Shown here: positions 13,321 through 59,441 of the stretch, piece by piece
Layout: every line of letters starts with the position of its first letter
How positions within the stretch are numbered: position 1 is the stretch's first letter
NCBI GenBank assembly: GCA_029289095.1
Contig: JARFUG010000008.1
Span: 1 to 64,000 of the forward strand
Length of the DNA stretch: 64,000 nucleotides
Source: Desulfuromonadales bacterium
GTDB lineage: Bacteria; Desulfobacterota; Desulfuromonadia; Desulfuromonadales; JACZKF01
Reading direction: 5' to 3'
The notes under the pieces: generated by a model
Seen by the model: only the letters and a program-made list of their open reading frames with translations
What the model was told of the DNA's origin: nothing
The model's database searches: none
Translations under genes and position numbers: made by a program

Positions 13321-13986
13321 TCACCTCTTCAGGCGATTGAACTCCTCCTCCATTTTGTTGAGCTCAACCCCCAGGTTGGAGGCGACGAGTCCCCACGACG
13401 TCTCTCCGGCGCGGACCTCGGACCAGATGTCGAGGGCGGGGCGCTTGGCCCTCCCCGAGAGGAAGGCGGCCAGTAGGATTTCCTGCGTGGTCGCACCGCC
13501 GGCGCGCAGTGCATCGAGAGCCGCCAGCTCGATATCCAGGCGACGCACGATCGCCTCGTCGGCGAGGGCGTCGGCGAGCTGCTGTTCGCTTCCGCTTCGC
13601 AGGGCCTCGGCGATCCGCGCTCCGAATGACTCGGGCTGGCGTCCGGCACCGGCAAGGGCGGCCATCCAGGAGCCTGCCGAGCGGCGAGCTCTCTGCAACG
13701 CATCGGGGGAGTTCCCCGTTTTCTGGCCGAAAGAGTAGGTGATCCAGAGGTCTTCGGCAGGCGTTCCGGACATTCGGCTGCGAACGACCTGCGAGCGGCT
13801 CACCTCGAAGGTCGAGGCGAGGAAAGAATTCTGCGTTGTCGCCAGAAGGTAAGGATCGACTTTCGAGGGCTGCGAGGGATCGAGAGTGCGGTCCTGGAAG
13901 CAGTGGCACGAGATGACCGGGTTTGCCAGAACCGGCGAGGCAATCAGCACAAGAAAAAGGAAGGCGAGCGCGGCGGCGGATTTCAT
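13321..13986 (-). CDS. Secreted hypothetical protein
   Basis: 221 residues. The signal peptide (KSAAALAFLFLVLIASPVLA) is followed by NPVISCHCFQ with two Cys. The rest is helical, without a known motif. The longer ORF start at 14046 would hide the signal sequence, so the ATG at 13986 preceded by AAAGGA is chosen. Function not recognised. It lies downstream of lptG on the same strand, separated by the heptanucleotide repeat array. Confidence 0.65.
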   Translation of the reverse strand: MKSAAALAFLFLVLIASPVLANPVISCHCFQDRTLDPSQPSKVDPYLLATTQNSFLASTFEVSRSQVVRSRMSGTPAEDLWITYSFGQKTGNSPDALQRARRSAGSWMAALAGAGRQPESFGARIAEALRSGSEQQLADALADEAIVRRLDIELAALDALRAGGATTQEILLAAFLSGRAKRPALDIWSEVRAGETSWGLVASNLGVELNKMEEEFNRLKR

Positions 13987-14077
13987 GGATGCGGTCCTTT
14001 CTGTCCAGAGAAAATCAGCCAAAAGAATAACCCCAATCGCCCGCACGACCTTTGACCCATGTCAATTTGGGAGAATC

Positions 14078-14178
14078 GGGAGTTGGGAGTTGGGAGTTGG
14101 GAGTCAGGAGCCAGGAGTAAACCTTGGATCTTGAATCTTGAATCTTGATCCTCCGTCCTCCGTCCTCCGTCCTCTGTC
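14078..14178. repeat. Heptanucleotide tandem repeat array A
   Basis: Two adjoining runs with exact 7-base period. First: GGGAGTT x3, GGGAGTC, AGGAGCC, AGGAGTA. After three bases: CTTGGAT, CTTGAAT x2, CTTGATC, CTCCGTC x3, CTCTGTC. The heptamer identity drifts along the array while the period is kept. It lies between lptG and the secreted hypothetical gene. Confidence 0.9.
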
Positions 14179-14191
14179 ATCTTGCCCCTCC

Positions 14192-15274
14192 CTACTCCCT
14201 TACGCTGAGAAGGAGCCAGACGCCGAGGAGGAGAAAGAGGAGGTTGGGCGCCCAGGCGGCGACGGCGGGAGGCAGGGCGGCAGCATAGCCGAAGGCCATC
14301 AGGAACGACTGGAGCAGGTAATAGGTGAGGCCGATCGCCAGGGCAATGGAGATACCGATGGCCAGGCTCGTGCCGCGCCCCTTCTTCAGTGCGAAAGGGA
14401 TGCCGAGAAAGGCCATGATCAGGTTGGAAAAGGGGGTCGCCAGACGGGCCTGCAGGTCGACTCTGTAGCGCGCCGCTTCGTAGCCCTCCTCCTGGAGCCG
14501 CTGGGCGAGGCGGCGCAGCTCCCTGAAGGTCATTTCGTCGTTCCGGATGGCGGTCGCTTCGAACTCTTTGGGACTTCGTTCCATGGCGACGCCGGTCGTC
14601 GCGTGCCGCTCCATGGCGACGAGCTCCCCCGTGTCGGGATCGAAATGACGAATGATCGCATCTTCGGCGACCCATCCCCCTGCGCGGAACTCAGCGCGGG
14701 GCGCATCAAAACGGCTGAGGATCCGGAACTGGTCGTCCATGAGATAGGAGCGGATCCCCGTCAGCTTGTATTCTTCAGGGACGGCAATATCGACGTGGAT
14801 GATCGTCTGCCCTTCCCGGAACCAGACATTCTCCCGTTTTAGGGATTCTACGGTCTTCCCTCGAACCGAGACTTCCAGTGTATGGTTGGCCTTGGCGGCG
14901 GCCGCGGGGACGACGTATTCGGCAAGGGCCAGGACCGTTACGCTTACCGCGAGGCCGACGCCGAGCAGGGGGGCGCTGATGCGCCACAGGCTGATCCCTC
15001 CGGCGCGCATTGCTGTCAATTCGTTCGTTCGCGAAAATCCACCCAGGGTCATGAAGGCCGCCAGGAGGACGGCCAACGGCGTCACCTGCGTCAGGATCAG
15101 CGGAATCTTCGTCCCGAAGTAGACGAGGTAATCGGACGCAGGCGCGTGATGCTCGATGAAGTCGTCAACTTTCTCGAAGAACTCCACCAGGAGATAGATG
15201 CCGACGAAGGCGCCGAGAGAGAGGGCGAAGACTCGGAAAAACGCCCCCAGTATGTAGCGGTTGAGAAGGTTCAT
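14192..15274 (-). CDS. lptG: LPS export permease LptG
   Basis: 360 residues, the second permease of the LptB2FG lipopolysaccharide exporter in the inner membrane. The N-terminal helices (LLNRYILGAFFRVFALSLG), a large periplasmic domain and C-terminal helices give the YjgP/YjgQ layout. The start overlaps the lptF stop (ATGA), so the two are translationally coupled. The ATPase LptB and bridge LptA/C are not in the window. Confidence 0.9.
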   Translation of the reverse strand: MNLLNRYILGAFFRVFALSLGAFVGIYLLVEFFEKVDDFIEHHAPASDYLVYFGTKIPLILTQVTPLAVLLAAFMTLGGFSRTNELTAMRAGGISLWRISAPLLGVGLAVSVTVLALAEYVVPAAAAKANHTLEVSVRGKTVESLKRENVWFREGQTIIHVDIAVPEEYKLTGIRSYLMDDQFRILSRFDAPRAEFRAGGWVAEDAIIRHFDPDTGELVAMERHATTGVAMERSPKEFEATAIRNDEMTFRELRRLAQRLQEEGYEAARYRVDLQARLATPFSNLIMAFLGIPFALKKGRGTSLAIGISIALAIGLTYYLLQSFLMAFGYAAALPPAVAAWAPNLLFLLLGVWLLLSVRE

Positions 15275-16452
15275 CGTTTCTTGCGTCTATGGATCAGGCG
15301 GCGAAGGGCTTCGGGCGCGTCGACGAAGATCCTGTCGAGAAAGTGCAGACGCCGCTCTCGGGCGCTGGTATGAACGAGGTAGAGCCCTCCGGCCAGAAAG
15401 AGGATGGTCGGGGTCCAGAGGACGGGAACCGACGGAAGTCCCCCCTCCACCGCCATGGTGCCCGCGAAAGAGTGTAGAATATAGTAGACGAGAAAAACGA
15501 CCAGTCCGATGGCGAATCCTCCTCCGCGCCCCGATCGCTGGTTCTGGATGCCAAGGGGAACGGCCACAAGGGCAAAGAGGACCGGAGCGAGGGGGAGCGA
15601 GAAGCGTCGGTGGATCTCGGCGGTCAGGCTCGCTCTTCGCAAGTCGGTTTCGGCCGCGCCGCGCGCCTTCAGCAGTTCGCCGAGTTTCAGTTCCTTGTCC
15701 CGGCGGGGGCGCCCTTCCTGCACGCGCTCTCCCATGCTCAGGTTGATGTCGTAGCTGGCGAAGCGGATCGTCTGGTAGTCCTCGTGGGCGGCCGGGGGGC
15801 GCCGGTGAATCGAGCCGTCTTCCAGGTGCAGCGTCAGAGTGAGAGTGTCGCGGTCGGCGAACAGGCGTCCGCGCGCCGCATTGATCGTTGCGGGCGCCCT
15901 CTGCAGACGGTCGTCCGAAATGAAGATCCCGCTCATGACGCTGGTGCGCTCGTCCATCTCCTCGGTATAGAGGACGAGTCCATCGAAGTCGCTGTTGAAG
16001 ATGCGCGGCTGGATGCCGATGCTGGCACGGTTGGCGGCGATCTCGAAGACCTGGTTGCGAAAGGCCGTGTTGGCTCCCGGCTCGGCCCACAGCGTCAGGG
16101 CTGCGGTGACCCCCGAGACGAGGAGCGCGAAAAAGAGAACGGGGCGCAGCATGTCGTAGAGGCTGATGCCGGAGGACTTGAGGGCGACGACCTCGCCGTC
16201 GCCGGAGAGGCGCCCGAACCCGAGCAGCACGCCGAGCAGACACGAGAGCGGGAGGGTGATGACGAGAAACGAAGGGAGAAGGTAGAGAAAAAGCTGGAAA
16301 ATCTCGGTAAAGGGAACCCCCCTGGTGACCACCATCTCCACCAGTCTCAACATGCGTCCCATGAGAAGAACGAAGGTGAATACGACCAGTGCAAGAAAGG
16401 TGGGGACGGCGATTTCTCGCAGAAGATAGCGATGGATTCGGACGGTGGGCAT
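15271..16452 (-). CDS. lptF: LPS export permease LptF
   Basis: 393 residues of the YjgP/YjgQ family. The N-terminus (RIHRYLLREIAVPTFLALVV), three further helices with LPLSCLLGVLLGFGRL, the periplasmic beta-jellyroll region and the C-terminal helices match LptF. It partners LptG to pull LPS out of the inner membrane. It is the first gene of the lptF-lptG pair, divergent from rpsB. Confidence 0.9.
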   Translation of the reverse strand: MPTVRIHRYLLREIAVPTFLALVVFTFVLLMGRMLRLVEMVVTRGVPFTEIFQLFLYLLPSFLVITLPLSCLLGVLLGFGRLSGDGEVVALKSSGISLYDMLRPVLFFALLVSGVTAALTLWAEPGANTAFRNQVFEIAANRASIGIQPRIFNSDFDGLVLYTEEMDERTSVMSGIFISDDRLQRAPATINAARGRLFADRDTLTLTLHLEDGSIHRRPPAAHEDYQTIRFASYDINLSMGERVQEGRPRRDKELKLGELLKARGAAETDLRRASLTAEIHRRFSLPLAPVLFALVAVPLGIQNQRSGRGGGFAIGLVVFLVYYILHSFAGTMAVEGGLPSVPVLWTPTILFLAGGLYLVHTSARERRLHFLDRIFVDAPEALRRLIHRRKKR

Positions 16453-55255: not shown

Positions 55256-56329
55256 ATGGGAAAATCAGACCTGAAGGATCTGCGCGCGCGGATCGATGCC
55301 ATCGACGATGAGATACTCGAACTGCTCAACCGCCGGGCCGAAGTCGTCGTGGAGGTCGGGCACGCCAAGGCCGGGGAAGACCGCGAGTTCTACGTCCCAA
55401 GCCGCGAGCGGGCGATCTACGAGCGCCTCTGCGAGCGCAACCGGGGACCGTTTCCGACCGAGGCGATCCGAAAGGTCTTCCGCGAGATCATCTCGGCCTC
55501 CCTCTCCCTCGAGCAGCCGATGAAGGTTGCCTTTCTTGGACCGCTGGCGACCTTTACCCATGTGGCCGCCATGCAGCAGTTCGGGTTTTCGGCGCAACTC
55601 GTTCCGCAGCGCAGCATTTCGGCCGTCTTCGAGGAGGTGCAGCGCGGACGCGCCCATTACGGCGTCGTTCCGGTAGAAAACTCCAACGAGGGGATCGTCT
55701 CCAATACCCTCGACATGTTCATGGCGTCCGATCTGCAGATCAACGCCGAGATCCTTCTCGAGATCTCCCACGACCTGCTTTCGCGCACCGGAAAGATCGA
55801 GGATGTGCGCAAGGTCGTCTCACATCCCCAGGCCCTCGCCCAGTGCCGCCGCTGGCTCGAGGAGAATTTGGAAGACGTTCCCCTGGTCGACGTGGCGAGC
55901 ACTGCCCTTGCCGCCCAGATGGTGGCCGAAGACGAGACGGCCGCCGCCATCGCCAGCGAGATGGCCGCCACTCTTTACGGCCTCGAAGTGGTGAAGAAGA
56001 AGATCGAGGACAACCCCAACAATTTCACCCGCTTTCTCGTCATAGGCCGGCGCACCCCCGATCGCAGCGGCCGGGACAAGACCTCCCTGATGTTCAGCGT
56101 CAAGGACCAGCCCGGTATTCTCTACCGCATGCTCGAACCCTTCAGCTCCCGGGGGATCAATCTCTCCAAGATCGAGAGTCGGCCGATGAAGTCCAAGGCA
56201 TGGGAGTACATCTTTTTTCTCGACATCGACGGACATATCGAGGAGGAGGGGGTCCGTGCAGCCGTGGAAGATCTCAAGGCGCACTGCCAGTTCCTGAAGG
56301 TTCTCGGCTCCTATCCGAGAGCGAGATAG
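55256..56329 (+). CDS. pheA: Bifunctional chorismate mutase/prephenate dehydratase
   Basis: 357 residues. N-terminal AroQ mutase (DLRARIDAIDDEILELLNRRAEVV), prephenate dehydratase (FLGPLATFTHVAAMQQFG; VPVENSNEGIV), and a C-terminal ACT domain (FSVKDQPGILYRMLEPF; IESRPMKSKAWEYIFFLDI) for phenylalanine feedback. AAAAGGA lies 8 bases before the ATG at 55256; 55247 is an alternative. Confidence 0.96.
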   Translation: MGKSDLKDLRARIDAIDDEILELLNRRAEVVVEVGHAKAGEDREFYVPSRERAIYERLCERNRGPFPTEAIRKVFREIISASLSLEQPMKVAFLGPLATFTHVAAMQQFGFSAQLVPQRSISAVFEEVQRGRAHYGVVPVENSNEGIVSNTLDMFMASDLQINAEILLEISHDLLSRTGKIEDVRKVVSHPQALAQCRRWLEENLEDVPLVDVASTALAAQMVAEDETAAAIASEMAATLYGLEVVKKKIEDNPNNFTRFLVIGRRTPDRSGRDKTSLMFSVKDQPGILYRMLEPFSSRGINLSKIESRPMKSKAWEYIFFLDIDGHIEEEGVRAAVEDLKAHCQFLKVLGSYPRAR

Positions 56330-56340
56330 AAGAGCAATTT

Positions 56341-56375
56341 TGAATTCTGAATTTTGAATTGTAAAACCTTGAAGA
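56341..56375. repeat. Heptanucleotide repeat array B (pheA-tyrA)
   Basis: TGAATTC, TGAATTT, TGAATTG, TAAAACC, TTGAAGA: five 7-base units between pheA and tyrA. Confidence 0.8.
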
Positions 56376-57262: not shown

Positions 57263-57338
57263 ACCAGGTAAAAGGTTCAAGGTAAATCTTGCACCTTGCC
57301 CCTTGAACCTTTCTCCTTGCACCTTAAATCTTGAACCA
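57262..57338. repeat. Heptanucleotide repeat array C (tyrA-aroA)
   Basis: Eleven 7-base units: AACCAGG, TAAAAGG, TTCAAGG, TAAATCT, TGCACCT, TGCCCCT, TGAACCT, TTCTCCT, TGCACCT, TAAATCT, TGAACCA. The array begins at the last base of the tyrA stop and ends 11 bases before aroA. Confidence 0.92.
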
Positions 57339-59393: not shown

Positions 59394-59399
59394 TTAAAA

Positions 59400-59441
59400 C
59401 CAGGAGCCTAGAGCCAAGATCCTAGAGCCAAGAGCCTGAGA
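59400..59441. repeat. Heptanucleotide repeat array E (cmk-ispH)
   Basis: CCAGGAG, CCTAGAG, CCAAGAT, CCTAGAG, CCAAGAG, CCTGAGA: six 7-base units, ending 4 bases before the ispH start. Confidence 0.92.

Follow-up and report, generated by a model that had tools for sequence, protein, structure and literature searches.

A converging heptamer array downstream of lptG and its relatives in the intergenic spacers of a Desulfuromonadales genome

Results

A heptamer array lies in the spacer downstream of lptG

Two genes of the LptF/LptG permease family lie on the − strand of the window, by which we mean the whole 64,000-nucleotide stretch of DNA that was analyzed. The first, lptF, occupies positions 15271–16452 (PF03739, E 2.2e-95) and is upstream of lptG, which is found at 14192–15274 (PF03739, E 1.2e-89). 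The next gene, an open reading frame at 13321–13986 on the − strand, runs in the same direction and encodes a product with a hydrophobic N-terminus, for which a Pfam search gave no match. All gene calls come from our own codon-usage heuristic and are not curated annotation. Downstream of lptG, the spacer contains an imperfect inverted repeat of heptamers spanning 14066–14200, as supported by its lag-7 segment and its fold. The repeat extends from the lptG stop codon, which lies at its edge, to about 80 bases short of the next gene.

The array is genuine and far above chance expectation. Its lag-7 score over approximately 14066–14200 is 55 (the lag-7 segment itself runs from 14073 to 14200), while none of 400 Markov shuffles of the 500 bp around it exceeded 15.8 and the maximum among 30 shuffles of the whole window was 12.2. 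When periods of 4 to 30 were scanned across the 64 kb, the lptG array was the sole segment above threshold.

The two arms of the element meet at a turn at approximately 14120, and the purine-rich strand points inward from both sides. The arm that is purine-rich in the lptG sense (14121–14200, − strand) was assigned from the sequence and a table of its units, and reads GGAGTAG, GGAGGGG, CAAGATG, ACAGAGG, three copies of ACGGAGG, ATCAAGA, two copies of TTCAAGA, and TCCAAGG. The first of these units overlaps the TAG stop codon of lptG (14194–14192). Two blocks within this arm are detected by Tandem Repeats Finder, a CTTGAAT block in its inner part (ATTCAAG in the lptG sense; 14123–14148) and a CTCCGTC block in its middle (GACGGAG; 14148–14178). 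The opposite arm (14069–14119), delimited from the sequence and Tandem Repeats Finder, is purine-rich on the + strand, where it reads GGGAGAATC, followed by three copies of GGGAGTT, then GGGAGTC, AGGAGCC, and AGGAGT. On the sense strand, the same arm appears as pyrimidine-rich CTCC units (CCCAACT units) that continue down to approximately 14069. A GGAG core is common to both arms, and the three variable bases differ (TTG/TCA/CCA versus GAC). The heptamers listed in the original prediction stand as they were placed (GGGAGTT three times, GGGAGTC, AGGAGCC, and AGGAGTA at 14078–14119, then the two blocks at the positions given above). The array that it drew at 14078–14178 is rightly located but too short, since the real span of about 14066–14200 overlaps the lptG stop.

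The GGGAGTT units and the CTTGAAT/CTCCGTC units had been read as successive conversions of one heptamer into another. Because they belong to opposite arms of an inverted repeat, there is no switch of GGGAGTT into CTTGAAT at the center of the element, and the first of the two conversions is a misreading of that center. The second, from CTTGAAT to CTCCGTC, holds in part: heptamers do grade within one arm and one register, and the sense strand passes through GACGGAG, GATCAAG, ATTCAAG, ATTCAAG, and ATCCAAG, with GATCAAG as the intermediate, but the register at this junction is not significant by itself. A strict 7-base phase had also been claimed over the last eight units; at the two large junctions, considered alone, such phase is not significant. 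GGGAGTT and CTTGAAT match at 1/7 positions in the observed register and 3/7 in another, and CTTGAAT and CTCCGTC at 2/7 and 3/7, such that an alternative register reaches 3/7 in both cases. Phase locking was likewise not significant at junctions of clearly different heptamers taken singly, with overlapping blocks excluded.

The element is predicted to fold as a single long stem of GGAG/CUCC steps with an energy of −49.2 kcal/mol; its z score of −1.63 against dinucleotide shuffles is suggestive but not strong. A search for intrinsic terminators (a stem followed by a T run) found no site within 13900–14350, and a terminator at the lptG site was rejected on that basis. The best Rfam matches to the element are far under the gathering score, and an Rfam RNA identity was rejected accordingly.

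Related arrays occur throughout the genome

This Desulfuromonadales-like genome contains approximately 100 short heptamer arrays related to the lptG copy, contrary to one part of what would have refuted the original prediction, namely an array unrelated to others. They lie mostly just past gene ends, and many have a hairpin layout. Three other arrays in the window are weaker than the lptG copy and degenerate. One, at 56327–56365 (+ strand), follows straight after a stop codon and reads AATTTTG, AATTCTG, AATTTTG. The other two fill their spacers: an array of inverted layout at 57263–57337, which reads AAAGGTTCAAGGT and then CTTGCAC/CTTGCCC/CTTGAAC units, and an array of CCAAGAG/CCTAGAG units at 59394–59440.

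Genome statistics were obtained from pattern searches and sampled stretches. A four-unit GGAGNNN pattern has 244 matches in the whole genome (3.5 Mb), which reduce to 90 ends of runs, counting one kind of end. Exact blocks of period 7 number 234 in 830 kb of sampled DNA, a length in which overlaps between loci are still counted and much of which was sampled around matches; the same DNA holds 9, 31, 9, 23, 8, and 7 blocks of periods 5, 6, 8, 9, 10, and 11, respectively. Stretches picked independently of matches contain four period-7 segments, and no other period, multiples of 7 aside, has more than one. Two relatives, each assembled as a single contig, show the same preference, with five period-7 segments versus at most one for other periods in G013 and five versus at most two in G020. 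The sampled DNA contains 48 heptamer classes after rotations and strands are merged, the commonest of which are rotations of GGAGCCA, GGAGTGA, and GGAGTTG.

Arrays favor a purine-first polarity and positions after stop codons

Paired arms within 150 bases of one another have the purine-rich arm first in 32 cases and the reverse order in none, and the loops between paired arms range from 6 to 134 bases. Measured along the G-rich strand, the median distance of the arrays is 13.5 bases to the ORF at the 5′ side and 81 bases to the one at the 3′ side. Of 88 arrays, 70 are nearer the 5′ ORF and 4 are flanked by divergent genes, compared with 66 of 368 baseline spacers. Both the polarity counts and these position counts come mostly from stretches centered on matches. 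Among sense-strand arrays that follow a stop codon, 37 of 61 begin within 12 bases of it. The purine-first polarity is clear in the GGAG family; blocks without a GGAG core show it more weakly, with 29 closer to the 5′ ORF versus 15. The polarity extends to 136 genomes of the order, where purine-first arrangements outnumber the reverse by 59 to 2 for a GGAG core and by 144 to 6 for a GAGG core; these are matches rather than elements, since they overlap inside elements, and the two cores, of which GAGG came from the backward controls, partly overlap. Four relatives (G011, G135, G009, and G108) have many inverted heptamer pairs with a GAGG core and nearly none with a GGAG core. G014, a relative without GGAG arrays, has inverted GTCATTT ... 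AATGACA pairs of opposite purine polarity (L105:9001–9127 and L103:18237–18341).

The arms of an element resemble each other. Their variable bases agree at 1.69 of 3 positions within elements versus 1.28 of 3 between elements (permutation p = 0.008, n = 23), and there are strong stems, such as one of −53.7 kcal/mol at L227. An AAA follows within three bases of the end of 40 of 112 GGAG runs (36%), compared with 10% of single intergenic GGAG words. Genome-wide, GGAG runs often end in GGAG-AAAAGC (e.g., L167, L168, and L182), and in some elements GCTTTT precedes the opposite arm, as if a terminator-like core lay between the arms.

Several features would fit pairs that are selected transcription terminators or RNA-stabilizing stem-loops, with the heptamer period as a by-product: the location of the arrays past stop codons, their scarcity between divergent genes, covariation of the arms, strong stems such as that at L227, and the A-run often found where the purine arm ends on its inner side. 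We nevertheless consider this rather unlikely as the explanation of the arrays. The lptG spacer lacks a terminator-like site, many arrays have a single detectable arm, and the lptG site is not conserved in relatives.

The arrangement also recalls paired repeats of heptamers and octamers in Geobacter metallireducens, proposed to be binding sites of a global regulator, which form converging pairs on opposite strands with variable spacing (PMC2700814); the layout here is the same. Paired regulator sites are an improbable account of the present arrays, however, because a single protein is unlikely to read words from so many heptamer classes, and because the arrays follow stop codons and are depleted from spacers between divergent genes, which is where one would look for regulator sites.

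A third proposal, made for GGGAATC and GGGGA(C/T)T repeats, is that such arrays are G-quadruplex elements. The GGGAGTT part of the lptG array does have at least four G3 tracts with short loops, and quadruplex formation in vitro has been shown for the Xanthomonas and Nostoc repeats (PMC4692102). However, a G3x4 motif is found in just 5 of 61 GGAG runs of at least four units, and the most frequent units, GGAGCCA and GGAGTGA, contain no tract longer than G2. Quadruplex formation was rejected as a general explanation on the basis of the 5 of 61 runs, and it is very improbable as the nature of the family.

Heptamer register is remembered beyond block edges

We counted same-register matches genome-wide, starting past the first mismatch that bounds each exact block. 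The match frequency is 45, 39, 35, 31, and 30% at distances of 1–7, 8–14, 15–21, 22–28, and 29–42 bases, compared with approximately 26% in the six other registers, and falls to 26% by 43–70 bases. Period memory with loose sequence fidelity, as originally suggested for the lptG array, is therefore supported across the genome out to approximately 40 bases.

The explanation that we favor, and consider probable, is that the lptG array is one copy of a genome-wide intergenic heptamer family whose members have two converging, hairpin-capable arms grown by slippage. A short 7-base duplication would arise just past a stop codon, and replication slippage would then lengthen the array in steps of 7. 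Point mutations would alter single units, and further slippage would spread the variants; we propose that heptamers grade within one register because slippage spreads point-mutated units in this way. We infer growth by 7-base slippage and mutation from the patterns above. With less confidence, we attribute the likeness of the arms either to one arm templating the other when a strand folds back, or to selection that maintains their pairing. Seven-base loops are generally too large for mismatch repair. Loss of mismatch repair was rejected as the cause of the arrays because two MutS-family genes are present in the genome. The transcribed stem that separates the stop codon from the following gene may, if it acts at all, most likely be a tolerated or mildly useful 3′-end or between-gene stem-loop. 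Some observations weigh against the favored account. Slippage alone does not account for the purine arm coming first or for the AAA that follows 36% of GGAG runs (10% for single words), and in the lptG element itself the arms agree in the GGAG core but not in the variable bases, the fold is only 1.6 sd better than shuffles, and a terminator-like site is lacking.

A more radical alternative is a dedicated copier working in 7-base steps, such as a polymerase, a clamp, or a fold-back template, that writes arrays just downstream of stop codons, the purine strand facing inward, as their sequence drifts. A special copying process is unneeded, because duplication by slippage together with point mutation gives the same pattern of register memory, and we regard a dedicated copier as highly improbable. 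If it were true, period and polarity would be set by the machine and sequence would be free to drift.

The lptG copy is lineage-specific and arrays flank several assembly gaps

No array was found at the lptG locus in any of 29 relatives or in Geothermobacter (50% identity). The lptG copy is lineage-specific as far as these relatives, mostly members of other families and none of them a second genome of the genus, can resolve. Period-7 arrays flank 9 of 24 scaffold gaps, versus 1.65% of random positions, which fits with arrays that are long or variable. That the whole pattern is an assembly artefact is scarcely credible: many contig ends and scaffold gaps do carry arrays, but related arrays are present in the single-contig relatives G013 and G020, and finished genomes have heptamer arrays (PMC2700814, PMC4692102). 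The draft assembly breaks at heptamer arrays at contig ends (L123, L132, and L137, and also C6, C14, C28, C41, and C144) as well as at 100-N gaps. Contigs C20 and C144 both begin in CTTGAAC arrays and may be neighbors.

Discussion

The arrays described here share a period, a polarity, and a position relative to genes; their arms agree, and their register decays with distance. We file the lptG element under an already known kind of intergenic heptamer repeat because it is the same kind of element, and what is new is its much more mixed vocabulary. Comparison among relatives suggests that each lineage has a heptamer vocabulary of its own.

The closest known parallels are heptamer repeats of other bacteria. 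Geobacter metallireducens has 49 elements of four heptanucleotides (GGACCGG), some of them within genes, and its class 3 sites are paired, with five heptamers of MTYCTGA, looping from one strand to the other (PMC2700814). The present arrays resemble these in being multi-copy tandem heptamers that form opposite-strand pairs with variable spacing, and are relatives in a broad sense. Geobacter metallireducens has one consensus per class, whereas here there are dozens of heptamers, several per array, in mostly intergenic positions. The common classes differ from both GGACCGG and MTYCTGA, and some single blocks (e.g., CAGAATT) resemble MTYCTGA. In Xanthomonas and Nostoc, the G-rich strand of GGGAATC and GGGGA(C/T)T arrays lies on average 28 bases away from the 5′ ORF and 160 away from the 3′ ORF, and the repeats form converging pairs (70 and 75 cases) and are rare between divergent genes (PMC4692102). 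The present arrays are likewise intergenic with a period of 7, close to the 5′ ORF, paired in converging orientation, and scarce between divergent ORFs. Unlike those repeats, which have a single quadruplex-capable G3 consensus, they consist mostly of GGAGNNN with G2 tracts and mixed units, and do not match a quadruplex-prone GGGNATC or GGGGA(C/T)T consensus.

TAACTGA direct repeats are abundant and intergenic in Beggiatoaceae, Cyanobacteria, and Bacteroidetes; they lie mostly just upstream of start codons, with just one indirect case in the main genome (PMC4679880). In contrast to this one fixed heptamer near starts, the arrays here follow stop codons and are often inverted. The presence of several different tandem heptamers within one genome is shared with Calothrix, whose tandem heptamers are known as STRR. 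These cyanobacterial repeats are noted here as they are cited in PMC4692102.

The preference of long-unit repeats in bacteria for 7 bases is an open question in the literature, and one proposal is that 7-base slippage is favored by how large a segment the polymerase holds (both quoted in PMC4692102). With dozens of heptamers that keep to a single register, polarity, and location relative to genes, this genome separates period from sequence better than genomes with a single consensus do. It would be a good test case for rates of slippage and for the role of stem-loops between genes.
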